Shown here: one piece after another, positions 40,944-60,513 of the stretch
Numbering within the stretch: position 1 is the stretch's first letter
Layout: every line of letters starts with the position of its first letter
NCBI RefSeq assembly: GCF_963675395.1
Contig: NZ_OY776222.1
Coordinates: forward strand, 372,001-436,000
Length of the DNA: 64,000 nt
Origin: an uncultured Vibrio sp.
Lineage (GTDB): Bacteria; Pseudomonadota; Gammaproteobacteria; Enterobacterales; Vibrionaceae
Direction of reading: 5' to 3'
The notes under the pieces: model-generated
Databases searched by the model: none
Seen by the model: the letters and a program-made list of their open reading frames with translations, nothing else
What the model was told of the DNA's origin: nothing
Translations under genes and position numbers: made by a program

Positions 40944-40958
40944 TGAAACGAGGTTTTA
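40944..40958. promoter_or_regulatory. KdgR-like operator, sulfatase operon
   Basis: TGAAACGAGGTTTTA, one mismatch to TGAAAYRNYRTTTYA. It is 35 bases upstream of the sulfatase B start. Confidence 0.65.
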
Positions 40959-40993
40959 AAATTGTTGTTTGTGATCACGGATTGATAAAAAAT

Positions 40994-41008
40994 TAAAATG
41001 TCGTTTTA
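40994..41008. promoter_or_regulatory. KdgR-like operator, maturase gene
   Basis: TAAAATGTCGTTTTA, one mismatch to the 15-mer consensus. It is 38 bases upstream of the maturase start, mirroring the copy on the sulfatase side. Confidence 0.6.
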
Positions 41009-41045
41009 AAATTAATAGCAAATCAAGAGTTAAGGTTTAGTTACA

Positions 41046-42248
41046 GTGTCACATGTTATTCCCACCAGCAAAGTGAAAGCAAAGCGTCCGTTTCATATTC
41101 TGTCGAAACCAATTGGACCCTTGTGCAACTTGGATTGCGAATATTGCTTCTACCTCGACAAAACCGACTATTACCCAACAACCAAGCAGTTTGATATGGG
41201 AGGCACCACGCTTGAGGCGCACATAAAAAGCTATATTGAGAGCCAGCCTGTTGGTTGTCTTGAAGTCACTTTTGGTTGGCAGGGAGGGGAGCCGACCCTA
41301 AGAGGGCTGGATTTTTTCCGCCAAGTTGTGGCGTTGCAAAAGAAGTACGCTCGCCCGGGAATGAAGATCATCAATACGCTACAAACTAATGGTGTGCTGA
41401 TCAATGACAACTGGGCTGCATTTCTTAAACAGCATGAGTTTTTGGTTGGTATCAGTATTGATGGGGATGAAGAACTGCATGACTACTATCGCAAAACTCG
41501 CAGTGGCAAAGGCTCTTATCGTCAGGTGATCCAAGGTTTGCAGACGCTACAAAAGTATCAGGTCGATACTAATGTGTTGACCGTGATTCAGAACCACAAT
41601 GGTAACCATGGCAAGCGGGTATATCGGCACTTGAAACAACTTGGGGTGACGTTTATTCAGTTCATCCCGATTGTAGAACCGGAGAAAGGTAAAGGTGTCT
41701 CAGAGCGAAGCGTATCACCGACGCAGTTTGGTCAGTTCATGGTCGATGTATTTGAAGAGTGGCGCAAAGGAGATATTGGCAAGGTGTACGTCAGCCATTT
41801 TGATAATGCGCTCGGTATGCATTTGGGTATGCCGTCTTCTATCTGTGTACACGCCCCTCAGTGTGGCGAGAATCTTGTGATTGAGCATAATGGTGATGTG
41901 TATAGCTGTGACCATTTCGTTTATCCACAATTTAAAGTGGGAAATATCAACCAGCGAGATTACCCTGACTTGATAGAAACACCAATCCAGCAACAATTTG
42001 CTACCCGTAAGCCGACTGGTAGCCAAATCCATTGCCAGCGATGTGACCAACGTTCGCTTTGTCATGGCGCTTGCCCAGCGCAGAGAATTAATGCAAACGG
42101 GGAGTTATCTATATCCGCAAAGCACTATCTGTGTGACGGATATTATCAGTTTTTTTCTCATCTTCGCCCTTACCTTGATGCGATGGGGCGATGTTTGCAA
42201 CGTGGCTTGCCACCAATTTATTACGCGCGATTTATGTGCCAGAACTAA
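41046..42248 (+). CDS. Anaerobic-type sulfatase-maturating enzyme (radical SAM)
   Basis: Radical SAM / SPASM enzyme of 400 residues that oxidises the sulfatase active-site Cys or Ser to formylglycine. The S-adenosylmethionine cluster motif is Cys27, Cys31, Cys34 in PLCNLDCEYCFYLDK. FGWQGGEPTLRG follows near residue 78. The C-terminal SPASM domain has CVHAPQCGENLVIEHNGDVY, then CDHFV, CQRCDQRSLCHGACPA and a final Cys in YLCDGYYQFF, enough to hold two more clusters. It begins with GTG at 41046, preceded by TAAGG. It faces the two sulfatases across a 136-base gap, so it probably matures them. Confidence 0.92.
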   Translation: MSHVIPTSKVKAKRPFHILSKPIGPLCNLDCEYCFYLDKTDYYPTTKQFDMGGTTLEAHIKSYIESQPVGCLEVTFGWQGGEPTLRGLDFFRQVVALQKKYARPGMKIINTLQTNGVLINDNWAAFLKQHEFLVGISIDGDEELHDYYRKTRSGKGSYRQVIQGLQTLQKYQVDTNVLTVIQNHNGNHGKRVYRHLKQLGVTFIQFIPIVEPEKGKGVSERSVSPTQFGQFMVDVFEEWRKGDIGKVYVSHFDNALGMHLGMPSSICVHAPQCGENLVIEHNGDVYSCDHFVYPQFKVGNINQRDYPDLIETPIQQQFATRKPTGSQIHCQRCDQRSLCHGACPAQRINANGELSISAKHYLCDGYYQFFSHLRPYLDAMGRCLQRGLPPIYYARFMCQN

Positions 42249-42316
42249 TACCAACCTAAGCCGGCAGTTGACCATTTCGTTTAGGTTAAACATCAAGTCA
42301 TAGAGCTCCCTACAAC

Positions 42317-42349
42317 CACTGACGCTGAACAGAAGTTCATGCGTCAGTG
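42317..42349 (+). terminator. Hairpin after the maturase gene
   Basis: CACTGACGC and GCGTCAGTG enclose an inner TGAAC/GTTCA stem, giving a long hairpin 69 bases past the stop. The following T-run is weak (CCATTTTCC). Confidence 0.65.
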
Positions 42350-42448
42350 CGCCATTTTCCTATTCGTGTTTAACAAGCCAGTATATCTGCGCGTGTTTGG
42401 TCCATGAGTAGCAGGTCAAGGTTCATATACTCTCTTAGATTTAATTAT

Positions 42449-42463
42449 TGAAACGACGTTTTA
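42449..42463. promoter_or_regulatory. KdgR-like operator, DUF2264/ABC operon (1)
   Basis: TGAAACGACGTTTTA fits the 15-mer consensus fully, 170 bases upstream of the DUF2264 gene start. Confidence 0.65.
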
Positions 42464-42521
42464 AATATATTGCCATCTCTAGTTCAATTTTGTGAGCTGG
42501 GTGGACATTGAACTAAAAAAA

Positions 42522-42536
42522 CAAAACGTAGTTTTG
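42522..42536. promoter_or_regulatory. Degenerate copy of the operator (2)
   Basis: CAAAACGTAGTTTTG is a perfect palindrome about a central T but has four mismatches to the 15-mer consensus. It is listed because it lies between two better copies. Confidence 0.35.
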
Positions 42537-42554
42537 ATCTTCATATCATAAATA

Positions 42555-42569
42555 TAAAAAAGCGTTTCA
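42555..42569. promoter_or_regulatory. KdgR-like operator, DUF2264/ABC operon (3)
   Basis: TAAAAAAGCGTTTCA, the inverse of TGAAACGCTTTTTTA, one mismatch to consensus, 63 bases upstream of the DUF2264 start. Confidence 0.55.
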
Positions 42570-42632
42570 ATAATTATGGTGAATAGGCTTTAATTCATTT
42601 CATTGATGATTTTGTTGTTAAGCGAGTAACCC

Positions 42633-44354
42633 GTGGCAATAAGTTTGAATGGTTTGGCAAATACGGCGCAAGGATGCACAAGCCGTTCTGAAACTCTGAA
42701 AATGCTAAAAGTGATTGTAGAGCGCCAAATGGAAGTTGTTCGTGGTACAACACAAGACGTGCCAAACTTCAACAGTGCTGCGCACTACACTGCAGACGCA
42801 GCTGGTATCGAACATATCTGTCGTTTGATGTGGGGAGCAGTGCCAGCAGGAGAGGTGCTAAGAGATGAACACGCCGAGTTGCTCCAGTTAATTGCCAATG
42901 GCACCAACCCATTGCACTCAGACTTTTGGCAATTTCCACGTAACTATGACCAACGTGTCGTGGAGATGTCATCGATTGCTGTCGCGCTGATTGATGCCAA
43001 TGAGTTTTACTGGCAGCCATTAGATCGCGAGCAGCGCACCAATCTTGTGACTTGGTTAAATTCCGTCTCCGATTTAGAGCTACCACCAAACAACTGGCGC
43101 TGGTTTCGAGTACTTATCTTAAAAGCGCTGTCATTACTCGGTGTCGACATTCAGCAACAGGTACTTGACCAAGACCTCGCGTTTATTGATGAAATGCATT
43201 TAACAAACGGGTGGTACCAAGATGGCCTCACGGGGGTGGTGGACTATTATAACCCGTTTGCTTTCCAACTTTACGCCTTGATTTATGCTCGCTGGGATAA
43301 CTCAAATAGCGAATTCAGTAAGGTTTTGGTCCGCCGTGCGATTGAGTTCTCCCATCGCTACCAATATTGGTTTGGTGAAGATGGTCAGCCTCTCTGTTAT
43401 GGCCGTTCGTTAAACTATCGCTTTGCTGGCGCTGCTTTTTGGGCGGAATTGGCGCGTAGTGAACACCCTGATATTGATATCGCAACGGCAAAGAGTTACT
43501 GGATGCAAAACATGCGCTGGTGGGCGACTCAGCCAATCTGGGATCAACAGGCACAGCTGTTACCAGGCTTTGCTTACCCTAATTTACTTGCGAGTGAATT
43601 CTATACCAGTTACGCGTCACCAATGCTGGCACTGAAAGCCTTTAACGCCCTCTATCTAGCTGAACAGCATCCATTTTGGACGGTAGAAGAGCAACCACTA
43701 TCTAGCAACATGCCCGCCACGTGGATTGGTGAGCATCACCTGATCACCCGTCGTCAAGGTAGTTATCTGTTGACCAATAGCGCACCTGCAAACGAGCTGC
43801 GTCATTGTAATGACAAATACAGCAAATTTGCCTACAGCTCCGCGCATGGACTGTGTGTTGAATCAACCCATTGGTTGGAGCAGGGTTGGGCGGGAGACAA
43901 TATTTTTGCCTTTGCCCATCCGCAGACTCGTCAATGGATTAGCCGCACCCGAAATATCAATAGCTATCGTGAAGGCGATGCATTGGTCTCGCTATGGCAG
44001 CCGTTTGAAGGTTGTGTGGTGAAAACGCGTCAACAATTTATTGAGCAGGGCGAACTTCGCAGCCACGAAATCACCACAGACTTTGCGTTGGAATTTGTCA
44101 TGACAGGGTATGCCGTGGATGGCTGGTCAGCTTGGTTCAGTCATCAGGTGATTCAGCCTGCGCGAGTCGAATCAGAGCGACTCTTTAGTGAACTGATTTT
44201 ATTGCAAGGTGAAGGGCAAACCCGAGTATACCCTTGCGCACCTAACACCAATTTACTTTATCCCCAAGCAAGTGTTCCAGCCATTACTGGTCGTATCGAA
44301 CCCGGTACACACCAGTATATTGTCGCCGTGAACGCTGGCAATGTGCCTCGCTGA
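42633..44354 (+). CDS. DUF2264 family protein, probable GH154 glycoside hydrolase
   Basis: Protein of 573 residues of the DUF2264 family, which I recall as the basis of glycoside hydrolase family GH154 (beta-glucuronidase activity reported). An (alpha/alpha) barrel is suggested by helices carrying NNWRWFRVLILKAL near residue 151, GWYQDGLTGVVDYYNPFAFQ near 190, and QPLCYGRSLNYRFAGAAFWA near 251. The C-terminal part looks beta-rich. No signal peptide, so cytoplasmic. It begins with GTG (42633) with a weak ribosome site; an internal ATG at 42702 would cut into conserved sequence. It heads the ABC transporter operon. Confidence 0.75.
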   Translation: MAISLNGLANTAQGCTSRSETLKMLKVIVERQMEVVRGTTQDVPNFNSAAHYTADAAGIEHICRLMWGAVPAGEVLRDEHAELLQLIANGTNPLHSDFWQFPRNYDQRVVEMSSIAVALIDANEFYWQPLDREQRTNLVTWLNSVSDLELPPNNWRWFRVLILKALSLLGVDIQQQVLDQDLAFIDEMHLTNGWYQDGLTGVVDYYNPFAFQLYALIYARWDNSNSEFSKVLVRRAIEFSHRYQYWFGEDGQPLCYGRSLNYRFAGAAFWAELARSEHPDIDIATAKSYWMQNMRWWATQPIWDQQAQLLPGFAYPNLLASEFYTSYASPMLALKAFNALYLAEQHPFWTVEEQPLSSNMPATWIGEHHLITRRQGSYLLTNSAPANELRHCNDKYSKFAYSSAHGLCVESTHWLEQGWAGDNIFAFAHPQTRQWISRTRNINSYREGDALVSLWQPFEGCVVKTRQQFIEQGELRSHEITTDFALEFVMTGYAVDGWSAWFSHQVIQPARVESERLFSELILLQGEGQTRVYPCAPNTNLLYPQASVPAITGRIEPGTHQYIVAVNAGNVPR

Positions 44355-44421
44355 GTTAAATGTCTACGTGAAGCACGAAAGAATCAATCCTCAAACTTAT
44401 ATAAAAATCAGGGAGTTACTG

Positions 44422-46341
44422 ATGAGTTATAAGAATAGCTTACCTCTACTTGGCAAAGTCGCTATCGCGGTTGCAGCCTCTGTCTCTTTTTCTGCTATGG
44501 CGGATACGTACAACGAAGCTCCACAGCTAAAAGAGTTGGTTGCAGCAGGGCAACTCGCCCCTGTTTCTGAGCGTTTGCCTGAAAACCCACTTGTTGTTGA
44601 GCCGATTGAATCTATCGGTCAATACGGCGGTGAATTGCGTCTGCTTGGATTGAAAGCAGACCGTGGTCACCGTATGCGTATGCTGAAGTACGACAACTTA
44701 TTTAACTTTAACCGTCACTATACTGGTATTGAGCCTAATCTTGCGACCAGCTACACCGTAAATGAAGATCTAACTGAGTACACGATCAGCTTGCGTAAAG
44801 GTGTTAAGTGGTCAGACGGCTCTGAGTTTACAGCAGATGACATCAAGTTCTACTTGGATCTGATCAATCGTGAAGACTGGTCTGGTAACCGACCTCTATA
44901 CGCAAGTGCGCCGGGTGACGCTGTAGGTGAAGTTGTCGATAAATACACAATCAAGATCAAGCTTAAAAAAGCAGATGGTATGTTCATTCGCAAACTGGCG
45001 AACACCGATGGCTCAAACATCGTTCAGTTCCCAAAACACTACTGTCAGCAGTACCTGCCTGAAGTAAACCCTAAAGCGAATGAAGAAGCAAAAGCAGCAG
45101 GCTTTGATAGTTGGCAACAATACTTCCAGACTAAGTGTCGCGCGATTTATTTCCAAGAAAGTTACCAAAACCCAGACCGCCCGACAGTAAACGCTTGGAA
45201 GGTAAAAGTGGTTCCAGGTCCGCAAACTCAGTATGCAGTTTGGGAACGTAACCCATACTATTGGCAAGTAGATACAGCCGGTAACCAATTGCCTTACCTA
45301 GATTCGGTTTACTTTTCTTACTCAGAAAATAAAGAAGAGATGGTTCTTCGTGCTGCGGCGGGTGAGACTGATTTTCAAACACGCCACATTGGTGTAGCCA
45401 AATACCGTCCAATGCTAATTGAAAACGAGAATAAAGGTCAATTTACCTACGCCACTCGTCCAAGTACCAGCATGAACGCGGTAATCCTAGGTTTCAACCA
45501 AACGCACAAAGATCCTGTTAAGCGCGAGCTATTCTCTAACAAAGACTTCCGTGTCGCGTTATCTCACGCGATTGACCGTGAAGGCATCAGCGAAACAGTA
45601 TTCTCTGGTGTCGTTGCGCCTTATCAAGCGGCTCCATCTGAAGGCAGTGCATTTTACGATGAAGAGTTTGCCAATCAGTACACGGAGTTTAACCAAGAAC
45701 TTGCCAACCAATTGCTGGACAAAGTAGGTCTAAACAAGAAAGACGACGATGGTTATCGACTTGATAAAAATGGCAACCGTCTTCGTATTGAAGCACTGGT
45801 TAACCAACAAAAAGTTGGTGAAACCACAGACATTCTTGAGCTTGTGAAAAACGATTGGAAAGACGTGGGCGTATTCCTAGATATTCGCATCGTTGAAGGT
45901 TCTTACCTGCAAACACAACGCTTGGCTAACGAGTATGACTTAGTGCCAGCGAAAGGTGACGGTGGTATCGGTGTGTTGGATACTTTCCGCAGCTACGCAC
46001 CTCAAAACCCAGAGTCTACCTGGGGTCTAGGCTACTACTACTGGATGACAGATACTTCACACGCTAATGCTGTTGAGCCACCTGCACACGTTAAGAAACA
46101 AATTGAGCTTTACCGTGCTATGGGCAAAACTTCTTCTCATGAAGAACAGTCTAAGTTAATGCAGCAAATTGTTGATATTGCGAAAGAAAATTTCTATGTG
46201 ATTGGTACGGTTCAACCTCTAGATGAAGGTGTGATCATTCGTAAAGGCGTTCGCAACGCTGATACTGAGGTTCCAAACTCATACAGTATCGCTTCGCCAG
46301 GTCCTATGCGTACCGCTCAACTTTGGAAGGAATCTAAATAA
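44422..46341 (+). CDS. Oligopeptide/oligosaccharide-type periplasmic binding protein (SBP family 5)
   Basis: Periplasmic protein of 639 residues. A signal peptide (LLGKVAIAVAASVSFSAMA) starts at the ATG 44422, preceded by AGGGAG; the longer frame from 44341 runs back into the DUF2264 gene. Family 5 features: YGGELRLLGLK near the mature start, LTEYTISLRKGVKWSDGSEF, and KDFRVALSHAIDREGISETVF. Family 5 proteins bind peptides but also cello-, chito- and other oligosaccharides in several bacteria. Here the neighbours indicate a charged oligosaccharide. A strong hairpin separates it from the permeases. Confidence 0.88.
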   Translation: MSYKNSLPLLGKVAIAVAASVSFSAMADTYNEAPQLKELVAAGQLAPVSERLPENPLVVEPIESIGQYGGELRLLGLKADRGHRMRMLKYDNLFNFNRHYTGIEPNLATSYTVNEDLTEYTISLRKGVKWSDGSEFTADDIKFYLDLINREDWSGNRPLYASAPGDAVGEVVDKYTIKIKLKKADGMFIRKLANTDGSNIVQFPKHYCQQYLPEVNPKANEEAKAAGFDSWQQYFQTKCRAIYFQESYQNPDRPTVNAWKVKVVPGPQTQYAVWERNPYYWQVDTAGNQLPYLDSVYFSYSENKEEMVLRAAAGETDFQTRHIGVAKYRPMLIENENKGQFTYATRPSTSMNAVILGFNQTHKDPVKRELFSNKDFRVALSHAIDREGISETVFSGVVAPYQAAPSEGSAFYDEEFANQYTEFNQELANQLLDKVGLNKKDDDGYRLDKNGNRLRIEALVNQQKVGETTDILELVKNDWKDVGVFLDIRIVEGSYLQTQRLANEYDLVPAKGDGGIGVLDTFRSYAPQNPESTWGLGYYYWMTDTSHANAVEPPAHVKKQIELYRAMGKTSSHEEQSKLMQQIVDIAKENFYVIGTVQPLDEGVIIRKGVRNADTEVPNSYSIASPGPMRTAQLWKESK

Positions 46342-46374
46342 TTTCGTTGAACTAGGTATGGGTAAACCAGACCT

Positions 46375-46406
46375 GTTAGCCGCAGTCACTAGCAGCTGCG
46401 GCTAAC
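46375..46406 (+). other. Intercistronic hairpin after the binding-protein gene
   Basis: GTTAGCCGCAG and CTGCGGCTAAC form a perfect 11-bp stem with a 10-base loop, followed by CCTTTTGTTTT. It probably raises binding-protein mRNA over the permease part by partial termination or protection. Confidence 0.75.
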
Positions 46407-46454
46407 GAACCTTTTGTTTTAACTGTTTGCGAATTCGCAAATGTAGGAATAATT

Positions 46455-47450
46455 ATGAGCAGTTTTTTTCTGTATATAGGACAAAGATTAGCGGCGGTGT
46501 TTACCACGTTGCTTGTCGTGTCTATTTTAGTTTTTGTCGTTATTGATTTACCACCGGGTGATTTTGCTTCTGCAAAAATCGCAGAAATGGCCGCCATGGG
46601 TCAAGATGTCGATCCAGAGCAGATACTTGTTTTGCGTGAAATGTTTGGTTTGGATAAACCTTTGCATGAGCGTTACGTAAGTTGGATTGGAGGCCTACTT
46701 ACAGGGGATTTGGGACTTTCTTTGGTTAACAATAAACCAGTTTGGGAAAACATTCAGCCTACGCTGTTGCCTACCATTCTTCTCGCTTGCGCAGTACTGG
46801 TTTTTAAATTTACGTTAGCTATTCCAATCGGTGTTTATTCTGCTCTGCGTCAATATTCTGTTGGCGATTACATCGCAACTATATTTGGCTTCATTGGTAT
46901 GGCAACGCCTAACTTCGTTATTGCGATTGTTGCCTTGCTGATTGGCTATTACTCATTTGACGTGATGCTGTCTGGTCTCTACTCACCAGAGTATATCTCT
47001 CAACCTATGAGTTTCGAAAAATTCATGAATGGTGTTAGCCGTAGCTGGCTGTATATTCTCGTTGCTGGTACAGCAGGTATGGCGGGTATCATCCGCATTA
47101 TGCGTGCCAACTTGCTCGATGAATTGACTAAGCCTTATGTAAAAACCGCACGAGCGAAAGGCCAAAAAGAATTTACGCTGTTAGTTAAGTACCCAATTCG
47201 TGTTGCGTGTTTACCACTTGCTGCGACGATTGGTTGGCAATTACCACTTCTTATCAGTGCGGACGTAATTGTAAGCCAGGTGTTGAACATCCCTACAATG
47301 GGACCAACCATGCTTAGCGCATTGCGTAACCAAGATATGTACCTAGCTGGTGACATTCTATTGCTGATGTCTACCTTAACTATTATAGGTACCATCATTT
47401 CTGACCTCATCATGTATTGGGTAGACCCTCGCGTACGCGCTGGTCTTTAA
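46455..47450 (+). CDS. ABC permease, DppB/OppB type
   Basis: Inner-membrane permease of 331 residues with six or so hydrophobic segments. The N-terminal helix AAVFTTLLVVSILVFVVIDLPPGD and the cytoplasmic EAA loop (LLDELTKPYVKTARAKGQKE near residue 220) are typical. It pairs with the following DppC-type permease. Confidence 0.9.
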   Translation: MSSFFLYIGQRLAAVFTTLLVVSILVFVVIDLPPGDFASAKIAEMAAMGQDVDPEQILVLREMFGLDKPLHERYVSWIGGLLTGDLGLSLVNNKPVWENIQPTLLPTILLACAVLVFKFTLAIPIGVYSALRQYSVGDYIATIFGFIGMATPNFVIAIVALLIGYYSFDVMLSGLYSPEYISQPMSFEKFMNGVSRSWLYILVAGTAGMAGIIRIMRANLLDELTKPYVKTARAKGQKEFTLLVKYPIRVACLPLAATIGWQLPLLISADVIVSQVLNIPTMGPTMLSALRNQDMYLAGDILLLMSTLTIIGTIISDLIMYWVDPRVRAGL

Positions 47451-47466
47451 CCGAGGAGTAATCATC

Positions 47467-48642
47467 ATGACAGCTAATATTCAAACTGCTCCTTCCAATA
47501 GCATGTTTGCTCGAGTATGGAAGCGAAAGAAAAAACAGATTGACCTATCGGAAGCAACCGCTTGGCAATTGATTGGTATTAAGTTAAGACGTCACAAACT
47601 GGCTTGGTATAGTATGTGGTTTTTAGCTCTAATCTATTTTGTCGCTGCATTCGCGGAGTTTTTTGCACCGTTTAACTCAAGTGATAACTGGCGTCGATAC
47701 ACTTACGCGCCGCCACAAGAAGTCAATTTATTTGAAAAGACGGATAACGGTTGGGACTGGGCACCGCACTTGATTGGCTACGACGTGAAAACGGACATGC
47801 GGTCCTTAAAGCGTCATTACACCGAAAATCCAGCCAAGAAAGTTTATTTTGAATTTTTTGGTGAGGTAGAACCGTACACGCTAGCTGGGTTCATTCCTAT
47901 GAAGTACAAGTTAGTCGTACCAAATAATAAACGTGATCCTTTCTTCATCCTTGGTTCTGATCGAATGGGACGCGATATGTTATCGCGATTAATTCATGGT
48001 GCACGTATCTCGCTGTCGGTTGGTCTAATTGGTGTATTTTTTACCTTTTTCATCGGAATTTTGGTGGGTGGTATCTCTGGTTACTTTGGTGGAAGAGTTG
48101 ATAACTTTATCCAACGTACCATGGAAATAGTTAAATCTGTGCCAACACTTCCGCTTTGGATGGCGCTAGGTGCATCATTACCTAATGACTGGAGCTCGTT
48201 GCAGCGCTACTTCCTGATAACCATTATCTTAGGTTTGGTTGCATGGCCTGATATGGCTCGCGTTGTCCGCAGCCGCTTCATGTCATTGAAGAGCGAAGAG
48301 TATGTTGCAGCGGCATGGTTAGATGGTAACTCGCCATTTGAAATTATCCGCCGTTACATGGTGCCAAACTTCCTGAGCCATATTATCGCTGTTGTTACGC
48401 TAGCTATTCCGGCCATGATTTTGGGTGAAACGGCGCTTAGCTTCTTAGGTCTCGGCCTTCAACCACCAATGGTGAGTTGGGGTGTCTTGTTACAAGAAGC
48501 CCAAAACATCCGTGCTCTAGCGGATGCAATTTGGCTGTTAATTCCAGCAGCAAGTGTGGTTATTGCTATTCTCGCGATGAACTTTGTAGGCGACGGTTTA
48601 CGTGACGCCTGCGACCCTTACCATGAACAAGGTGCAAAATAA
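47467..48642 (+). CDS. ABC permease, DppC/OppC type, with long insert
   Basis: Permease of 391 residues, longer than the usual about 300. After the first helix (WYSMWFLALIYFVAAFAEFF, about residues 47-66) there is a periplasmic stretch of about 110 residues before LGSDRMGRDMLSRLIHGAR, the conserved entry to the core. The EAA loop is KSEEYVAAAWLDGNSPFEI near residue 276, and ALSFLGLGLQPPMVSWG follows. The long periplasmic insert could shape a docking surface for a large binding protein. It starts 16 bases after the first permease. Confidence 0.88.
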   Translation: MTANIQTAPSNSMFARVWKRKKKQIDLSEATAWQLIGIKLRRHKLAWYSMWFLALIYFVAAFAEFFAPFNSSDNWRRYTYAPPQEVNLFEKTDNGWDWAPHLIGYDVKTDMRSLKRHYTENPAKKVYFEFFGEVEPYTLAGFIPMKYKLVVPNNKRDPFFILGSDRMGRDMLSRLIHGARISLSVGLIGVFFTFFIGILVGGISGYFGGRVDNFIQRTMEIVKSVPTLPLWMALGASLPNDWSSLQRYFLITIILGLVAWPDMARVVRSRFMSLKSEEYVAAAWLDGNSPFEIIRRYMVPNFLSHIIAVVTLAIPAMILGETALSFLGLGLQPPMVSWGVLLQEAQNIRALADAIWLLIPAASVVIAILAMNFVGDGLRDACDPYHEQGAK

Positions 48643-48652
48643 GGTATTTAAA

Positions 48653-50326
48653 ATGGCGGAAAAAATTCTTGAAGTTAAAGATCTTAACGTCAGCTTCCCG
48701 ACAACGATGGAAACATTCCACGCTGTTAAAAACGTATCGTTTGATTTAAATCGTGGGGAAACCTTGTCTGTAATTGGTGAGTCTGGCTCTGGTAAATCGG
48801 TGACAACCAGCGCGATTCTTCAACTGCTGGACAAGCCAGGACGCATTGATTCAGGGGAAATTCTTTATCATACAGATGGGTCCATGGTGGATATCACTAC
48901 GTTGCATCCGCGTAGTGAAGAAATGCGTAGTTTGCGTCGCTTTAACTTCTCATTGGTATCGCAGGAGCCAATGGCAGCACTGAGTCCTGTTCATACGGTT
49001 GGCGATCAAATTAAAGAAGTGCTTTGTCTTGTTGACCCCGGCATCACGAAACAAGTGGCTCATGAACGTGCAGTTGAACTTTTGAATCAGGTGCAAATGC
49101 CTGAGCCGGAAAGTTTGATTAACAAGTACTCGTTCCAGCTATCTGGTGGCCAGCGCCAACGAGTAGTCATTGCGATGGCGATTGCCAGTCGTCCAGATGT
49201 ATTAATTGCCGACGAGCCAACAACGGCGTTAGATGTGACAACTCAAGCTGAAATTTTGGATTTGTTTGCCAAACTACAGCAAGAGATAGGCATGGCTATT
49301 TTGTTCATTACTCATGATTTAGGGGTAGTGGCACAGATCTCTGACCGTGTCGTCGTTATGGAAAAAGGTGTTGTTGTTGAGCAAGGAGATGTACGCCAAA
49401 TCTTCGAACAACCGGAGCATCCATATACGATCAAGCTAATGAATGCGACGCGTGCGCTAGAGCTACCTTCTAAGGTGAAAAAACCGTTTGTTTACGCAGG
49501 GCAAACACCGCTTTTAGATGTAAATAATGTCACTAAAGTGTTTGAAAAGCCGAGTAAAATGTTCGAGAAAAAACAATTTATGACGGCGGTTAACAATGCG
49601 ACGTTAACGCTGCATCCAGGTGAATCTTTGGGAATTGTTGGTGAGTCCGGTTCGGGAAAAAGTACCTTAGGTCGAGCGATTTTAGGTATGCAGCCAGCAA
49701 CGTCAGGTAACATTCGTTACGTAGACGAAAATAGTGACATCGAGCTTGAGCTTGCTGACTATAAGCGTGTGAAACGCGATCCTTTGTTTGCTGATCTGCG
49801 TTTGATTTTCCAGGACCCGTGGTCCTCTTTAAATCCACGTATGACGGTTGCGGATATCATTGAAGAACCACTGAAACTGCTTCGTACAGAGATGAGTGCG
49901 CAAGAACGTAAAGATCGCGTACGTAATATGATGCGTAGAGTTGGTTTGCCAGCGGAGTTCTCAAGCCGCTATCCGCACGCGTTCTCGGGGGGACAGCGTC
50001 AGCGAATTGTTATCGCTCGCGCGCTAGTGACAATCCCTAAACTCATCATTGCTGATGAGGCGACGGCAGCATTGGACGTATCACTGCGTGCTCAGGTTTT
50101 GGACCTGTTGATTGAATTCCAAAACGAATTTGGCACATCGTTCATCTTGATCACTCATGACATCGCAACAGTGAAGTACTTCTGTGATCGAGTGATCGTA
50201 CTGCAGCACGGCACGATAATGGAGCAGGGTACTATCGAGCAGGTAATTCATAACCCACAAGAACCATACACGCAAAAATTGATTGCAGCGGTTCCTGTGG
50301 CCGAACTACCTAAAGAAGTGGCGTAA
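48653..50326 (+). CDS. Fused DppD-DppF-type ABC ATPase
   Basis: A 557-residue protein with two complete ATPase domains. Domain 1: Walker A GESGSGKSVT near residue 41, signature LSGGQRQRVVIAMAI, Walker B LIADEPTTALD. Domain 2: Walker A GESGSGKSTLG near 337, signature FSGGQRQRIVIARAL, Walker B IIADEATAALD. Each ends in the oligopeptide-family tail (YT.KL). Typical OppD and OppF are separate; here they are one chain. In the second Walker B, Ala replaces the usual Pro after the catalytic Glu. The start at 48653 is 10 bases after the permease; longer frames overlap it. Confidence 0.9.
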   Translation: MAEKILEVKDLNVSFPTTMETFHAVKNVSFDLNRGETLSVIGESGSGKSVTTSAILQLLDKPGRIDSGEILYHTDGSMVDITTLHPRSEEMRSLRRFNFSLVSQEPMAALSPVHTVGDQIKEVLCLVDPGITKQVAHERAVELLNQVQMPEPESLINKYSFQLSGGQRQRVVIAMAIASRPDVLIADEPTTALDVTTQAEILDLFAKLQQEIGMAILFITHDLGVVAQISDRVVVMEKGVVVEQGDVRQIFEQPEHPYTIKLMNATRALELPSKVKKPFVYAGQTPLLDVNNVTKVFEKPSKMFEKKQFMTAVNNATLTLHPGESLGIVGESGSGKSTLGRAILGMQPATSGNIRYVDENSDIELELADYKRVKRDPLFADLRLIFQDPWSSLNPRMTVADIIEEPLKLLRTEMSAQERKDRVRNMMRRVGLPAEFSSRYPHAFSGGQRQRIVIARALVTIPKLIIADEATAALDVSLRAQVLDLLIEFQNEFGTSFILITHDIATVKYFCDRVIVLQHGTIMEQGTIEQVIHNPQEPYTQKLIAAVPVAELPKEVA

Positions 50327-52599: not shown

Positions 52600-52619
52600 A
52601 TACATTGGATACTGAATCA

Positions 52620-52692: not shown

Positions 52693-52872
52693 GTGATTGA
52701 TATTTCTATCCCAAAAATTCAGCCGTTGGGCGGTGAATATAGCGCGGTGAATTTGAGTGACATCTCTCAGGCATATAAGTATCGATGGAAAGTATTAATC
52801 TTCGGTTTCAATCTAAAACTAAAGTTAGGATCTTTTTGGAGCAAACTGATCGAATTGATTAGAGCATTTTGA
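52693..52872 (+). other. Possible gene fragment, 59 codons
   Basis: Open frame starting GTG without ribosome site: IDISIPKIQPLGGEYSAVNL, then SDISQAYKYRWKVLIFGFNL. It has protein-like composition but I do not recognise it. It may be a C-terminal stump left by the same deletions that cut the ROK gene. Confidence 0.3.
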
Positions 52873-53297
52873 CCGCAACAATAAAACAGCGACAATTAGC
52901 TAATTATATTGTTGAGAAATTAGCCTTGGTTGAACGACACTCTCAAAATAACCACTAAAAACTTAGGAACTTAGATCAATTAGGAACGCAGCTAAAATTA
53001 ACATCCGAGAAACAAAATAATATCGTTATACAGTTTTTTATTTGTGATGAAAAATAACTGCTGAGCTTCACACCGCCGCGGCGCGTATTTCTCACAAGCT
53101 AGGTAAGAGTACCCCCACGGTAAATAATCGCTTATACAAGCCCGCTATCGCAGCGGGATATTTTGTTACCTTTTGATAACTTATATGTACTTGCGTACTC
53201 ATGGTTTGCTTGGGTTTTATACCGAGATAATTCAGGTCACTAATTAAGCGCTTAAAGGCGATAGTCGAAAGCGGTCAAAGACATAGAACTCGATAAA
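52873..53297. other. Gene debris with HTH-like fragments
   Basis: No intact gene. Short frames look like pieces of a regulator: TIKQRQLANYIVEKLALVER (ending 52958), LDQLGTQLKLTSEKQNNIVI (around 52975-53056), and AARISHKLGKSTPTVNNRLY (53060-53176), separated by frameshifts. The last resembles a helix-turn-helix. A hairpin CCCGCT-ATCGC-AGCGGG (53141-53157) followed by ATATTTT may be an old terminator. Confidence 0.4.
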
Positions 53298-53322
53298 CAA
53301 AAAGCCCGGCGCAAGGCCGGGC
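53298..53322 (-). terminator. Terminator of the OprD-type porin gene
   Basis: GCCCGGC-5 bases-GCCGGGC stem followed on the minus strand by TTTTTG, 27 bases past the stop. Confidence 0.88.
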
Positions 53323-53348
53323 GAAGAGTAAAAGACAGGTTTAAAGGA

Positions 53349-54764
53349 TTACTTGAGTTTCACGCTGTATGAGATAAGAACTTTCAGGTCGTTACGATCG
53401 TTCTTATGCACAATGTCGTCGCCACGGAACTGAGCGCGGTAAGTACGAATGTTCAAACCTTCTAGCGCACCGTCTAGGAATTTGTAGCCTACGTGCCAGT
53501 CAAATGAAGTCATTGAACCATCGTATTCTTCCGCGTCTTTGCTAGAGCGAACGTTTGTTGCGTAGTTACCGCCAACACTCGCAGTTAGTTCAGGTAGACC
53601 CCAATCCGCAAAGTTGTAGTTCACTGCCAGTTTCGCCGCGCGCGCACCATCCACGTTGTAGTCTTCTAGCTGAGAAGTCGCCTGCATGAAGTTACGGTTG
53701 TCTGAGTTCGCCCAAGGCGTTAAACGGAAGTTGTAAGTCAGGTCTTGGCCACGAGTATCGGTGTCACTCAAGCCAGCGATCCAGGTGAAACCACCATGTT
53801 TAAGGTTAGCGCCTAAGCCGTAGTAGCTTTGCGCTTTTGGATCTTTCACGTTTGGATTCAGATCGCTTTCTTCAGCAATAGAGCCGTGGTAGAAGGCGGT
53901 TAGACCCAAATCTGCACCGCCTAAATCAAAACCGTACTTACCCAGTGCTTGCCAGTTTGTGCGGTAATCTTTACCGACACCGTAACCAAGGTCGATTTGA
54001 CCGCCACCGAATTTGTAGATCGCACCTACCGTTTGGATATGATCAATGATCGTATTAGTCGTATCAGAACCTGATTTTTGATTTTGATGCCACTTAGTGG
54101 TCATAGGTAGGAATTCTTTTTGCCAGTCGTTCTTGAATTCGTCAGCAATCGCGTAACCCAAAACCAAGTTACCAAAGTGTGCTTTTGCCTCTATACCACG
54201 GTAAGCATGTGGGTTAAGACCCCAGCTTGAACGGATAGTACCAATGTTGATACGAGTGTAACCGCCGCGTACAGCAAGACCGACATCTTCATCGCCAAAT
54301 TTTGCTTTCAATGCCGCGATTGTCAGTGCTGCATAAGACTTTTCACAACCCTTGCCGTCATAAGATGAGTTACCTTCACATTCGTGATCATAGTAAAGGA
54401 TCTCAGATATGCCTGTAGTGTCGCCCAGCTTCAGGTTGGTATTTGCCCACAAATCAAGGCCGATCGTATCTTTGAAGTAGCCTGATTTGTAATCCCAAGC
54501 CAATTGCAGAGTTTGGTTTTCGATGTTTGGTACCCAGTGACCATCTGCATTTTTATCTTCACGATCACGAATGTATAAGAAGGAGTGAATAGTAGATGTT
54601 GAACTATCGTAAAACGCTTGTTTCGCTTGTGCTGCTAAATCAACCGCTGCTGCACTCTCGTTAAGTACGTCCGTCGGATCCGTATCATTTGCTAATACCG
54701 AGCCAGAGACTAGCACCGCAATAATAGAGGCACTAACCATAGAGAGATTGGTTCTATTTTTCAT
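53349..54764 (-). CDS. OprD-family outer-membrane porin
   Basis: Barrel protein of 471 residues. The signal peptide MKNRTNLSMVSASIIAVLVS ends near SVLAN. The mature part matches the OprD/chitoporin group: a region after residue 45 with STIHSFLYIRDRED, QLAWDYKSGYFKDTIGLDLW, and late YNFADWGLPELTASVGG and GLNIRTYRAQFRG repeats. OprD-family porins conduct amino acids, aromatic acids or chito-oligosaccharides. Position and a KdgR-like site 70 bases upstream suggest charged oligosaccharides. The start is set at 54764; two earlier in-frame ATGs are possible. Confidence 0.85.
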   Translation of the reverse strand: MKNRTNLSMVSASIIAVLVSGSVLANDTDPTDVLNESAAAVDLAAQAKQAFYDSSTSTIHSFLYIRDREDKNADGHWVPNIENQTLQLAWDYKSGYFKDTIGLDLWANTNLKLGDTTGISEILYYDHECEGNSSYDGKGCEKSYAALTIAALKAKFGDEDVGLAVRGGYTRINIGTIRSSWGLNPHAYRGIEAKAHFGNLVLGYAIADEFKNDWQKEFLPMTTKWHQNQKSGSDTTNTIIDHIQTVGAIYKFGGGQIDLGYGVGKDYRTNWQALGKYGFDLGGADLGLTAFYHGSIAEESDLNPNVKDPKAQSYYGLGANLKHGGFTWIAGLSDTDTRGQDLTYNFRLTPWANSDNRNFMQATSQLEDYNVDGARAAKLAVNYNFADWGLPELTASVGGNYATNVRSSKDAEEYDGSMTSFDWHVGYKFLDGALEGLNIRTYRAQFRGDDIVHKNDRNDLKVLISYSVKLK

Positions 54765-54833
54765 ATCCATGCTTTCCATTTGTTTGTTTTGATTTATTGT
54801 TCTAATAATATACAAAAAGAATGATTTTTAAAC

Positions 54834-54848
54834 AGAAACATTGTTTTA
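54834..54848. promoter_or_regulatory. KdgR-like operator, OprD porin gene
   Basis: AGAAACATTGTTTTA, one mismatch to TGAAAYRNYRTTTYA and the copy closest to the enterobacterial KdgR core AAACATTGTTT. It is 70 bases upstream of the porin start. Confidence 0.6.
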
Positions 54849-55005
54849 TAAATTAAAAATAAGATCATCATCAAAGTTAAAATAATATTTCATGAATTAG
54901 TGTGACGTAGAAAGAATAAACAATGTGAATGCAAAATGTGCTATGAGAAACCGATTGCAAATCGTCTATAGATGGATGGGATGTTCGGTACTTTTGGAAG
55001 GAGAG

Positions 55006-56051: not shown

Positions 56052-56124
56052 GTATGAGTTGTTAATAGGAGAGGTAAGTAGTGAGGGACAAGTTAATTGT
56101 TCAATTTTCTTTATTAAAAAAAAA

Positions 56125-56441: not shown

Positions 56442-56456
56442 TGAAACGATGTTTTA
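56442..56456. promoter_or_regulatory. KdgR-like operator, sulP-galE-galT (1)
   Basis: TGAAACGATGTTTTA, full match to TGAAAYRNYRTTTYA, 199 bases before sulP. Confidence 0.65.
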
Positions 56457-56496
56457 CAATCCGTGTCACACATTTGAAATTAATGAAAAATAAAAA

Positions 56497-56511
56497 TGAA
56501 ATGACGTTTCA
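56497..56511. promoter_or_regulatory. KdgR-like operator, sulP-galE-galT (2)
   Basis: TGAAATGACGTTTCA, full match and the most symmetric copy in the window. It lies 55 bases from the first, about five helical turns, so dimers could sit on the same face. Confidence 0.68.
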
Positions 56512-56654
56512 ATAAATCTTGATTGAGTGGGAGTGATTGTTTATAGTTTTTGTGTTCATTTTGCTGCTGTATGAATTTTTGGTTTTTGGGTGAGTACAGG
56601 AAAGCGAGATGATCATCTTCCCTCCATAAATCGACTGTTGTTAGAGGAATCGTG

Positions 56655-58280
56655 ATGCGCGCTGTTGAACATCGCAAGTTGTCCCTTCTGTTTCCGTTTT
56701 TAAAGTGGTCTTCAAAGGTAAACTCTCAAACCCTTAAAGCGGATGTTTTAGCCGGACTTACAGGGGCGATTATCGTGCTCCCCCAAGGCATTGCTTATGC
56801 CATGATTGCAGGTTTGCCACCTGAGTTCGGTCTGTATACTGCAATTATCCCTGCTATTTTGGCATCACTGTTTGGCTCATCGCATCATTTGATTTCGGGC
56901 CCAACAGCGGCACTTTCGGTGATTGTTTTTACCACCATAAGCCAGTTCGCTGATCCAGGAACGCCTATCTATATTCAGCTCTGCTTTACCTTGACCCTGT
57001 GCGCAGGGATCATTCAATTGCTTTTCGGACTCTTGCGTTTTGGCGCTGTGGTCAACTTCGTTTCCCACTCAGTGGTGCTTGGGTTCACTCTTGGGGCGGC
57101 TATTGTTATCGGAGTCAGCCAGCTAAAACATGTATTGGGTTTGCAATACGACTCAGGTGAAACGGCGATTGAAAATATTAGTTTGCTTGTCAGCAATATC
57201 AATGCGCTAAATGGTAAAGAGTTATTGGTGGGGGTTATTACCATCGCTGTTTGTGTGTTGTGTAAACGCCTTTGGCCCAAACTACCTCATATGTTATTGG
57301 CAACCTTGGTAGCGATGGGGTTTGCGACTTGGATGAATCACGCCGGTAACGAGGTATTGATGGTTAGCCAAGTCAGCAGTAACTATTTAAGCCTGTCTTC
57401 TCCTTTTGTGGGTGTTAGCCACCTATCTGCCATGCTTGACGGTGTTTTTGCTGTCGCGATGCTGGGGCTGGTAGAAGCGATTTCAATTAGTCGTTCGGTC
57501 GCGATGAAATCTCGCCAACAGCTTGATAGTAACCAAGAGTTTATCGGCCAGGGGATCTCAAATATTGTTGGCTCATTTTTCTCTTGTTATGTCTCCTCGG
57601 GGTCTTTCACCCGTAGTGGCGTCAATTACAGTAGTGGTGCGCAAACACCACTAGCGGCCGTGTTTGCTGGCTTATTTTTATTGATCATTATGGTTCTGTT
57701 TGCTCCGTATGCAGCCTATATACCGATTGCAGGTATGGGCGGCTTGTTGCTGGTTGTCGCTTGGAACCTGGTGGATGTTCATCACATTAAAGTGATTGCA
57801 AAACATGATGGTAAAGAAATCTTTATTTTGGTATTGACCAGTTTATCTGCGATTTTTCTTCACCTTGAACTTTCTATTTATGTTGGCGTTGCTGCCTCTC
57901 TCTTCTTCTATCTGCGCAGAACGTCGCGTCCCACTATCGAGTTGCTTAATTGCGATGAGCTGAATATTGATGATCAGCAAGATATCGCGGTGATCCGCAT
58001 CAACGGCTCGATTTTCTTTGGTTGCGTTCAATACCTCCATCAAGAGTTGCAGAAAATCAGTTCTAAGCAATTGATTATTTTAGGAAGAGGGATCAACTTC
58101 ATTGATCATCTCGGAGTCCAGATGCTCGATGATTATGTATCAACCAGTGGGCGGAGCATCTATTTCTGTCGCTTTAAAGCTAACGCCAAAGCATCACTGT
58201 TAAATGGTGCAACGTCGGTTCGAGAAGAGCAGTTTTCAGACCGATTGACGCCATTGTTAAAGCTAATTTGTAAGAGGTAA
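56655..58280 (+). CDS. SulP-family anion transporter with STAS domain
   Basis: Inner-membrane protein of 541 residues. The SulP signature region LTGAIIVLPQGIAYAMIAGLPPEFGLYTA lies near residues 34-62, followed by about ten hydrophobic segments. A C-terminal cytoplasmic STAS domain (about 430-535) contains VIRINGSIFFGCVQYL and FIDHLGVQMLDDY. SulP proteins carry sulfate, bicarbonate or organic anions. Here it is in the operator-sharing set with two sulfatases, so handling the sulfate freed in the cytoplasm is a fitting role, though direction is not shown by sequence. The ATG at 56655 follows AGAGGAAT; a GTG one codon earlier is possible. galE follows after 3 bases. Confidence 0.85.
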   Translation: MRAVEHRKLSLLFPFLKWSSKVNSQTLKADVLAGLTGAIIVLPQGIAYAMIAGLPPEFGLYTAIIPAILASLFGSSHHLISGPTAALSVIVFTTISQFADPGTPIYIQLCFTLTLCAGIIQLLFGLLRFGAVVNFVSHSVVLGFTLGAAIVIGVSQLKHVLGLQYDSGETAIENISLLVSNINALNGKELLVGVITIAVCVLCKRLWPKLPHMLLATLVAMGFATWMNHAGNEVLMVSQVSSNYLSLSSPFVGVSHLSAMLDGVFAVAMLGLVEAISISRSVAMKSRQQLDSNQEFIGQGISNIVGSFFSCYVSSGSFTRSGVNYSSGAQTPLAAVFAGLFLLIIMVLFAPYAAYIPIAGMGGLLLVVAWNLVDVHHIKVIAKHDGKEIFILVLTSLSAIFLHLELSIYVGVAASLFFYLRRTSRPTIELLNCDELNIDDQQDIAVIRINGSIFFGCVQYLHQELQKISSKQLIILGRGINFIDHLGVQMLDDYVSTSGRSIYFCRFKANAKASLLNGATSVREEQFSDRLTPLLKLICKR

Positions 58281-58283
58281 TTC

Positions 58284-59300
58284 ATGAAAGTATTAGTGAC
58301 GGGTGGCTGCGGCTATATCGGCAGTCATGCTTGTGTCGCATTGGCTGAAGCAGGGCATGAGCCGATTGTGCTAGATAACTTCAGCAACAGTAACCCTAAG
58401 GCCGTGGTTCGTATTGAGAAATTGATTGGGCGTCCATTGGTTGTCTATCAGGGGGACATTCGTGATCGTCTCGCGCTTGATTGCATTTTCGAACAGCACA
58501 ATATCGGCGCGGTAATGCATTTCGCTGGGTTAAAAGCCGTCGGCGAATCGGTGGCGAAACCGCTCGAGTATTACGACAACAATGTCACAGGAACGCTGAA
58601 TTTACTGGCTGCGATGAGAGCCGCACATATTTACCGCTTGATCTTCAGTTCATCGGCTACGGTATATGGCGATCCTCTAACGGTTCCTATTTCTGAAGCT
58701 GCTCCAACCGGCGCGACGACTAACCCATATGGCACCAGTAAACATATGGTTGAAAGTTGTTTAAGAGATTTCTCCACCGCGAACCCGGACTGGAGCATCA
58801 CTCTGTTACGTTACTTCAACCCCATCGGTGCGCACCCTAGCGGTTTAATTGGTGAAGATCCAACTGGCATTCCTAATAACCTGATGCCGTTTATTACTCA
58901 AGTGGCGATTGGACGACGCGATACCCTGTCTGTTTTTGGTAATGATTACCCAACGCCTGATGGCACAGGTGTGCGTGACTACATTCATGTGCAGGATCTC
59001 GTCGAAGGCCATGTGGCGGCACTGGAAGTGCGAGGTTACATCAGCGGGTTGCATGTCTATAACCTCGGAACGGGTAACGGTGTCAGCGTTTTAGATATGG
59101 TTGCGGCGATGAATAAGGTGCTGGGTCGAGAGTTACCAGTACGCATCGAACCGCGAAGAGCGGGTGATATTGCTCAGTGTTTTGCCGAAGTGGATAAGGC
59201 TGAGAAAGAGCTTGGTTGGAGCGCGAATCACGATTTAATGGATATGGTTGAGCACAGTTGGAACTGGCAGCAGCGCAATCCGAATGGTTACCAATCTTAA
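58284..59300 (+). CDS. galE: UDP-glucose 4-epimerase
   Basis: Short-chain dehydrogenase-type epimerase of 338 residues. NAD-binding VTGGCGYIGSHACVALAEAG at the start, DIRD near residue 60, catalytic Ser in FSSSATVYGDP near 124 and the YxxxK pair in NPYGTSKHMVE near 149. Length is typical. It interconverts UDP-galactose and UDP-glucose. Here it lies between sulP (3-base gap) and galT (17-base gap) without galK, which suits galactose-1-phosphate made by the GH112 phosphorylase rather than by galactokinase. Confidence 0.94.
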   Translation: MKVLVTGGCGYIGSHACVALAEAGHEPIVLDNFSNSNPKAVVRIEKLIGRPLVVYQGDIRDRLALDCIFEQHNIGAVMHFAGLKAVGESVAKPLEYYDNNVTGTLNLLAAMRAAHIYRLIFSSSATVYGDPLTVPISEAAPTGATTNPYGTSKHMVESCLRDFSTANPDWSITLLRYFNPIGAHPSGLIGEDPTGIPNNLMPFITQVAIGRRDTLSVFGNDYPTPDGTGVRDYIHVQDLVEGHVAALEVRGYISGLHVYNLGTGNGVSVLDMVAAMNKVLGRELPVRIEPRRAGDIAQCFAEVDKAEKELGWSANHDLMDMVEHSWNWQQRNPNGYQS

Positions 59301-59317
59301 TTTTTTAAGGAAACATT

Positions 59318-60367
59318 ATGTCTCAATCATTTGATGTTGCAGAGCACCCTCACCGTCGTTTTAATCCCCTTACGGGTGAGTGGGTGCTGGTGTCGCCTCA
59401 TCGTGCGAAAAGACCGTGGCAGGGACAACAAGAAACACTCAATATTGAAAACCTGCCAAGTTATGACAATAACTGCTTTTTGTGCCCAACCAATAAGCGA
59501 ATCAGCGGTGATGTGAACCCAAATTATCAAGGCACTTTCGTTTTTAAGAACGACTTTGCTGCCCTCACTGAGCAAACCCCTGATTCACCGGTTAGTGATG
59601 ATCCTCTTTTTCAACTTCATAGTGCGAAAGGGGAAAGTCGAGTGATCTGTTTCTCGCCTGATCACAGCCGTACATTGCCAGAATTGAGCTTGGAAGAAAT
59701 TGGTCAAGTGATTACTACTTGGATGGAACAGACGCAAGAGCTTAGCCAGCGTTACCCTTGGGTTCAGGTATTTGAAAACAAGGGTGAAAGCATGGGGTGC
59801 TCTCAACCTCATCCACATGGTCAAATTTGGGCAAACAGCTTCGTGCCTACCTTGGTAGCAAAAAAAGACCAGCAGCAGCAGAACTATTTTGAACGATACC
59901 ATAGCCCTCTATTGCTGGATTATGTGCAGCGTGAAGTGACGTCTGGTGAACGTGTTGTTGTAGAAAGTGAATACTGGGTGGCATTGGTTCCTTACTGGGC
60001 GGCCTGGCCATTCGAAACACTGGTCTTGCCAAAAGTTAAGCTAAGCCGACTGACGGAAATGACTCCGGAGATCGAGGCTGATCTTGCTAAGACCATTAAA
60101 GTGTTAACCACTAAATACGACAATCTTTTTCAGTGTTCCTTCCCTTACTCAATGGGCTGGCATGGCGCACCGTTTATTGCAGGTAATCCAGACGCGTATT
60201 GGCAAGTACATGCGAGCTTTTTACCGCCACTACTGCGGAGTGCGACAGTACGAAAATTCATGGTGGGATACGAAATGCTAGCCGAGAGTCAGCGTGACTT
60301 AACGCCAGAGCAAGCGGCAGAACGTCTACGCAATGCGTCAGAGACTCACTACAAGCAACAAGATTAG
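59318..60367 (+). CDS. galT: Galactose-1-phosphate uridylyltransferase
   Basis: Enzyme of 349 residues with the HIT-superfamily active site [12 protein letters not shown] near residue 160, where the His between the two prolines carries the uridylyl group. Other motifs are the N-terminal [18 protein letters not shown] and the zinc-site [15 protein letters not shown]. It moves UMP from UDP-glucose to galactose-1-phosphate. It follows galE in the KdgR-like set and would use galactose-1-phosphate from GH112. Confidence 0.95.
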
Positions 60368-60376
60368 CTGTGCGAA

Positions 60377-60403
60377 GTTCGGAGAAGAAACGCTTCTCCG
60401 AAC
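60377..60403 (+). terminator. Hairpin after galT
   Basis: GTTCGGAGAAG and CTTCTCCGAAC form a perfect 11-bp stem with a 5-base loop; the T-run is absent, so termination may be partial. Confidence 0.6.
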
Positions 60404-60498
60404 GGTTAAATCATGAAGGTGGATGGCGGTTGACGAGTTTGACCATTCGCTGTAACAGGAAGCTGACAATCAGCTTTTTTTGAAATTAACATTTAAAA

Positions 60499-60513
60499 TG
60501 AAATGATGTTTTA
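60499..60513. promoter_or_regulatory. KdgR-like operator, GH88-GH112 operon
   Basis: TGAAATGATGTTTTA, full match to the 15-mer consensus, 108 bases upstream of the GH88 start. Confidence 0.65.

Follow-up and report, generated by a model that had tools for sequence, protein, structure and literature searches.

The stretch analyzed here (the window) comprises 64,000 bp, bases 372001 to 436000, of a 1.57-Mb contig of an uncultured Vibrio sp., the smaller of two contigs in a 4.77-Mb genome. It carries a gene island encoding two sulfatases with a sulfatase-maturase-type protein, a DUF2264 protein with an oligopeptide-type ABC transporter, a methyl-accepting chemotaxis protein (MCP), an OprD-family porin, SulP-GalE-GalT, GH88, and GH112, and short palindromes resembling the operator of the IclR-family repressor KdgR recur upstream of these genes (Table 1). 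The closest named matches to the GH88 protein, at 98 to 99% identity, come from a Vibrionaceae metagenome-assembled genome and from Vibrio sp. J1-1. Because this gene set is joined by a PL8 lyase just past the end of the window, it points to chondroitin or hyaluronan as the substrate of the island.

Palindromic sites upstream of the island genes

The original prediction listed nine such sites. All nine positions hold the sequences described, and eight match the pattern TGAAAYRNYRTTTYA on the better strand with no mismatch (42449, 56442, 56497, and 60499) or with one (40944, 40994, 42555, and 54834). The exception is 42522, which is not among the 31 window matches to this pattern with two or fewer mismatches. 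It had been called a degenerate copy; it is at best a partial copy, and its matrix rank (Table 1) speaks against an operator. The sharing of one motif by "six scattered promoters" stood as far as the motif is concerned, but the number did not: the listed sites lie in five intergenic regions, both sulfatases and the maturase sharing one divergent region.

Table 1. Predicted operators and genes of the region. Positions are those of the window; matrix ranks are by the kdgR-upstream matrix described in the text.
Feature	Position	Strand	Sequence	Basis or remark
Candidate operator ∼125 bp upstream of a porin gene (30055-31050)	29930..29944			Exact; matrix rank 7; missed by the original prediction
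Two sulfatases (PF00884)	37950..40909	-		Domain search
KdgR-type predicted operator, divergent sulfatase/maturase region	40944..40958		TGAAACGAGGTTTTA	Matrix rank 8
Second predicted operator of the sulfatase/maturase region, 50 bp further	40994..41008		TAAAATGTCGTTTTA	Matrix rank 4
Radical-SAM/SPASM protein, sulfatase-maturase type	41046..42248	+		Domains; maturase role inferred from adjoining genes
Upstream predicted operator, DUF2264/ABC operon	42449..42463		TGAAACGACGTTTTA	Matrix rank 3
Partial palindrome	42522..42536		CAAAACGTAGTTTTG	Matrix rank 99; no operator by matrix
Downstream predicted operator, DUF2264/ABC operon	42555..42569		TAAAAAAGCGTTTCA	Matrix rank 1
DUF2264 protein and oligopeptide-type ABC transporter (SBP5, two permeases, double ATPase)	42633..50326	+
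KdgR-B stump, last ∼22 codons with a broken frame	53060..53124	+		tblastn, residues 240-262
OprD-family porin	53349..54815	-
Weak predicted operator upstream of OprD	54834..54848		AGAAACATTGTTTTA	Matrix rank 10; blind palindrome rank 12
Second candidate operator upstream of OprD	54878..54892		TAAAATAATATTTCA	Exact pattern; matrix rank 9; missed by the original prediction
First predicted operator of the sulP-galE-galT pair	56442..56456		TGAAACGATGTTTTA	Matrix rank 5
Second predicted operator of the sulP-galE-galT pair	56497..56511		TGAAATGACGTTTCA	Perfect palindrome; matrix rank 2
sulP-galE-galT	56652..60367	+
Predicted operator upstream of GH88-GH112-PL8	60499..60513		TGAAATGATGTTTTA	Matrix rank 6
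GH88 and GH112	60622..64000, running on to 64044	+		PL8 lyase next, beyond the window end

The placement of the sites was analyzed in several ways. First, exact matches to the pattern occur at nine places in the genome, six of them within the window and four of these six on the original list (binomial P of ∼5e-10 for the clustering, a value flattered by the pattern having been drawn from these sites). The symmetric pattern occurs at 24 places, eight in the window, two at kdgR, and 14 elsewhere, compared to 17 for the reversed control; in keeping with the prediction, 10 of the 24 thus fall in the window or at kdgR-kduD. With one mismatch allowed, there are 106 strand matches in the genome compared to 79 for the control, so that little weight can be given to an isolated weak site elsewhere, and the one-mismatch pattern was rejected as a genome-wide regulon finder because the two counts are too close. 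Second, a matrix built from sites upstream of kdgR in other genomes, preselected by a loose pattern (26 distinct sites), ranks eight of the nine listed sites among the 10 best positions in the window. Nine window positions score at least 14, namely, seven of the listed sites plus those at 29930 and 54878, and all nine are intergenic, compared to an expectation of 0.22 for intergenic sequence of that total length. None of the three 16-kb stretches around other IclR genes (L026, L031, and L032) contains a site reaching 14, the top scores being 11.8, 11.4, and 10.8. Third, because the pattern and the preselected matrix carry circularity, a palindrome was learned blind, with no pattern supplied, from 29 regions upstream of kdgR in other Vibrio genomes (the genome studied here left out, near relatives kept in). 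At a width of 15 it reads TGAAAaGnCtTTTCA, and listed sites take ranks 1 to 7 in the window, with 54834 at rank 12; at widths of 17 and 19, the top sites other than 56442, six in number, remain within the top seven. Chance AT-rich palindromes without function would fit the small difference between the one-mismatch count and its control, but they would not be expected to be intergenic in nine of nine strong cases or to keep their position and spacing across genomes, and this explanation, rejected on those two grounds, is highly improbable.

The site at 29930 lies before a porin gene that stands behind sugar ABC-transporter genes. A site of this type is present in all five genomes with that porin, including the one studied here, among 29 genomes searched.

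The partial palindrome at 42522 behaves differently from its neighbors. Its right half (AGTTTTGATC) is kept without the left half in three genomes (G211, G092, and G095) among the 15 aligned, which are a subset of 25 DUF2264-carrying genomes picked for keeping the downstream site. Because the right half is kept where the left half is gone, 42522 may be a promoter element rather than an operator. In the same 15 genomes, a TGTGA between the two DUF2264 operators, upstream of 42633, is invariant while its flanks vary; this is possibly half of a CRP-like site. In a scan of six intergenic regions within the window, no CRP site had fewer than three mismatches to the consensus. Scans for sigma-70 promoters gave 3, 4, and 2 (upstream of GH88) matches compared to shuffle means of 3.9, 5.1, and 0.6, respectively, so that no promoter is claimed.

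Conservation of the sites among Vibrio genomes

Conservation was followed in a genus set of 227 genomes, including the one studied here, of which 25 carry the DUF2264 protein at an E value of ≤1e-100. All 25 also encode GH88 (E ≤ 1e-60) and KdgR (E ≤ 1e-90), the latter compared to 109 of the 227 genomes overall. A site scoring at least 14 precedes DUF2264 in 24 of the 25, as a pair 105 to 107 bp apart in 17 genomes (in two of these, one member scores only 11.1) and as a single site in 7. Before GH88, a site at −80 to −190 is present in 22 of the 25 genomes, with one mismatch at most in 20 and two mismatches in the other 2. In two of the three genomes that lack it, seen at the locus level, GH88 lies within ∼45 bp after galT. 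Five further, more distant GH88 loci have no site with one or no mismatch within 300 bp, and three of these genomes (G052, G067, and G079) have no KdgR at E ≤ 1e-90. Between the sulfatases and the maturase, a site scoring at least 13 was present in 14 of 20 relatives fetched (of 24), and 29 of the best 30 loci of the KdgR type found in this genome (KdgR-A; see below) have a site with one mismatch at most within 300 bp upstream of kdgR. Position and spacing persist even where the identity of the DUF2264 proteins falls to ∼50%.

The pair of sites before sulP is informative about the history of the island. Seventeen of the 21 named loci include sulP or kduI/kdgK, and all 17 have a site there, with a pair 55 to 56 bp apart at scores of at least 14 in 13 loci and a single site in 4. 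In V. mimicus, V. metoecus, V. hepatarius (two loci), Vibrio sp. JPW-9-11-11, and three Enterovibrio loci, the pair has kduI on one side and kdgK-eda, with sulP or galT after it, on the other. In a fourth Enterovibrio locus, that of E. nigricans, only one member of the pair reaches 14, and in Vibrio sp. S9_S30 the pair is flanked by kduI and sulP. In the window, the pair at 56442 and 56497 stands directly before sulP, and kdgK-eda is absent from the island. A broken insertion sequence copy (55057-55972) sits approximately where the relatives have kduI. Likewise, a short-chain dehydrogenase, presumed to be KduD, lies between galT and GH88 in 14 of the 21 loci and is absent here. We infer that kduI, kdgK-eda, and the presumed kduD were lost from this island rather than never gained. 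The insertion sequence remnant, between OprD and sulP, consists of a DDE_Tnp_1 transposase fragment and two shorter open reading frames (ORFs). In V. mexicanus (L038), a KduD-YgjV-RpiB-KdgK-Eda set like that beside the kdgR gene of the genome studied here lies inside the island, with several genes matching in broken pieces.

KdgR and a deleted paralogue

The original prediction held that the regulator is encoded outside the window and acts in trans. A kdgR homolog was found on the same chromosome at C1:297838-298617, ending ∼74 kb short of the window; its distance from the sulfatases is ∼111 kb. Its product matches the NCBIfam equivalog NF011671 at 467.3 bits (cutoff, 275), and its effector domain aligns over 177 residues with that of Escherichia coli KdgR (1ysp; 240 bits). 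The genome holds four IclR_C matches, only one of which matches KdgR at E ≤ 1e-90; two other IclR proteins score below the KdgR cutoff in the NCBIfam scan, which did not include the fourth (L032). The kdgR gene, referred to as kdgR-A, is divergent from kduD and the genes for a YgjV-type membrane protein and a LacAB/RpiB-family protein, kdgK, and eda, and two KdgR-type sites (L025:7687 and 7759) lie between kdgR-A and kduD. The expectation of sites at kdu/kdg genes was therefore borne out both here and in relatives, whose homologous islands carry such operators between kduI and kdgK-eda and also at a presumed kduD. Because KduI (PF04962) has no match anywhere in this genome, the RpiB/LacAB-family protein beside kdgR-A is likely the isomerase. 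Streptococcal DhuI is an RpiB/LacAB-family protein. The predicted resemblance to the KdgR operator also held, as the gamma-proteobacterial KdgR motif listed in Table 1 of PMC8222616, RWWGAAACGNCGTTTCAKKA, contains the window site consensus as its core.

Further analysis of the KdgR proteins showed that the rows fetched (30 and 16) split into two separate clades, A and B, respectively, each with support of 100/99. Clade A includes the kduD-adjacent copy of this genome, to which KdgR-B proteins are 65 to 69% identical. Assigned at E ≤ 1e-90 by identity and, for fetched rows, by the tree, the 25 DUF2264 genomes comprise 5 with KdgR-A only, 19 with KdgR-B only, 1 with both, and none with neither, and one KdgR-B genome (G226) has a further relative at 61%. 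KdgR-B is a neighbor of the island: surroundings were fetched for 15 of the 20 KdgR-B genomes, and in all 15 it lies within 19.5 kb of an island gene (transporter, MCP, or DUF2264), the nearest recognized transporter or MCP gene being 5 to 7 kb away in G177 and G173. In G162, which has no DUF2264 match, the surroundings of KdgR-B show no island gene. The recognition helices of the two proteins are near-identical in the sequences compared, SKATTYRFLQTM in KdgR-A of this genome and SKSTVYRFLQTM in both KdgR-B and E. coli K-12 KdgR.

The window retains only a stump of kdgR-B (Table 1). Positions 52818-53057 match the region upstream of kdgR-B in G069 at 87.5%, and positions 53059-53383 match G069 at 81%, starting within the last codons of kdgR-B, whereas the ∼1.04 kb around the intact gene of G069 is absent between those flanks. 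Alignment with G069 thus shows that this genome has lost KdgR-B, the kdgR paralogue belonging to the island, by deletion. The proposal that the regulator acts in trans fits the location of KdgR-A; what it had not seen is this loss of a local paralogue. The equivalent stretches of G097, G183, G049, and G223 contain no recognizable kdgR-B.

Taken together, it is very likely that these sites are KdgR operators that place a chondroitin/hyaluronan-type island under a single switch relieved by 2-keto-3-deoxygluconate (KDG). The PL8 lyase and GH88 would release unsaturated uronate, which the enzymes encoded beside kdgR-A would convert to KDG. KdgR-A would bind the operators and repress the island until KDG relieves the repressor, by analogy with pectin in Dickeya, where, according to passages of PMC8688573, KDG relieves repression by KdgR. 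The spacings of the pairs are 105 to 107 bp, 55 to 56 bp, and, at most kdgR pairs, 71 to 74 bp, some of which are not whole helical turns. Because these spacings are fixed, the two sites of a pair may be bound together, perhaps with looping of the DNA between them. After the deletion of KdgR-B, repression of the island would now be exerted in trans by the housekeeping KdgR-A. The operators are found at the same places in DUF2264 genomes with KdgR-A only, KdgR-B only, or both. A regulator hand-over therefore seems probable, though less firmly so than the operators themselves: the island would have shed its own KdgR and KDG-pathway genes, kept its operators, and become wired to the housekeeping KdgR of its host, which may also reach a fucosidase locus described below.

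The deletion could also be read in another way, namely, that the operators are relics of KdgR-B which have gone unread since its loss, leaving the island constitutive or otherwise controlled. KdgR-B is deleted here, G097, G183, G049, and G223 give no match to it at E ≤ 1e-90, and some sites are weaker in G049 and G223. However, most operators are still strong in the five genomes with KdgR-A only, the differences seen by eye being mostly at free positions or at positions of purine/pyrimidine exchange, and the promoter of KdgR-A itself has similar operators. Relic sites are thus unlikely.

A number of observations weigh against control of the island by KdgR. Fourteen of the 24 symmetric-pattern places lie elsewhere in the genome, with the control at 17. 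With the width of the blind palindrome set to 17 or 19, 56442 drops to 10th or 8th place, respectively, and 54834 is no longer among the top 14. The co-occurrence counts treat related genomes as independent. No nearby site precedes DUF2264 in 1 of the 25 genomes, GH88 has no site in 3 of the 25, and the sulfatase/maturase region has none in 6 of the 20 relatives fetched. G089 and G026 have KdgR and no site with one mismatch or fewer before their distant GH88 genes. The regulatory case, well supported as it is, comes from sequence comparison only. Finally, outside the island one exact site stands before a murQ-phosphotransferase system (PTS) cluster with an RpiR-family regulator and another before the gene for a DeoR-family regulator, so a different protein could read a similar motif.

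Sites outside the island and related systems

The last point raises the alternative that the region is controlled by a different regulator whose palindrome is similar. Candidates are the RpiR-family protein encoded by murQ's neighbor, the DeoR-family protein from the fucosidase locus, and a further IclR protein such as L032. The distribution of the DeoR ortholog and of the murQ site argues otherwise. A close DeoR ortholog (at least 90% identity) is found in 4 of 29 genomes searched, including the one studied here, and is missing from five of the nine DUF2264 genomes among them; G177, G223, G049, G092, and G116 have no DeoR match at E ≤ 1e-60 and yet carry the island operators. The murQ site is present in only 3 of 30 murQ-type loci (G000, G183, and G097). 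By comparison, the motif tracks kdgR, kduI/kdgK, and the island, and it matches the published KdgR motif. Control by another regulator is therefore improbable, slightly more so than relic sites, and KdgR remains the preferred regulator of the island.

The murQ site itself (L027:7981) is an exact match before a murQ-PTS cluster with its own RpiR-family regulator. Two KdgR-type sites, L028:8235 and L028:12291, lie near an alpha-L-fucosidase gene on the large contig of G000, near 2.815 Mb. The first precedes the DeoR-family regulator and is kept in all four close loci, and the second precedes a paralogous binding protein, 75% identical to the SBP5 protein of the window, and is kept in all three loci with that protein (the genome studied here counted in both cases). 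A third site, L028:7956, overlaps the start of the fucosidase gene and was therefore disregarded. The same circuit may reach this large-chromosome locus, and a fucosylated chondroitin sulfate as the substrate would be a guess from the fucosidase locus. At another site, C2:2866925 (L029), two ORFs in the surroundings have no NCBIfam family match.

Rodionov et al. (2004), as cited in PMC8222616 and PMC6537148, reportedly described the KdgR regulon of enterobacteria and other gamma-proteobacteria. The sites and genes described here share with it the operator consensus, the regulator family, and kduD, kdgK, and eda (kduI in relatives); they differ in that the targets form a glycosaminoglycan-type island of sulfatase, PL8, GH88, and GH112 genes and in that a local repressor paralogue has been lost. 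In Vibrio, an oligogalacturonide cluster of V. parahaemolyticus is placed in the KdgR regulon in a passage of PMC6537148 citing Rodionov et al. 2004. A likeness by description only is seen with region XII of V. vulnificus, a 33-kb island on the second chromosome with an arylsulfatase cluster and an "arylsulfatase regulator," chondroitinase genes, and an oligopeptide ABC transporter; the passages of PMC3360785 that describe it name no KdgR-type regulator. The hyaluronic acid utilization locus of V. alginolyticus LWW-9 (PMC8222515) is likewise a Vibrio glycosaminoglycan locus with KDG as an intermediate, but a term search of the main text of that paper gave no IclR, KdgR, or regulator. In the glycosaminoglycan cluster of Streptococcus and Lactobacillus, as described in parts of PMC6045597, UGL, an isomerase, a reductase, KdgK, and KdgA similarly take glycosaminoglycan uronates to pyruvate via KDG; it differs in its hosts and in its PTS-type uptake, and KdgR appears there only in the title of a reference. 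A search of the open-access literature by title, start of abstract, or selected passages found no paper tying KdgR to a chondroitin or hyaluronan locus of Vibrio. The kind of system, a KdgR regulon, is known; within the open-access literature searched, this member and the loss of its local repressor are new.

KDG and KdgR would provide a concrete and testable switch for a glycosaminoglycan island of Vibrio. In V. vulnificus, an island of this description is discussed in passages of PMC3360785 as a mark of clinical genotypes. The deletion would also offer a natural experiment in which a pathway keeps its operators while swapping its repressor. Within the island, the DUF2264 protein (42633-44354) resembles solved β-d-glucuronic acid/glucuronate dehydratases (9o4u, 66 bits; 9nwf, 63 bits), and it possibly provides an extra route from glucuronate.

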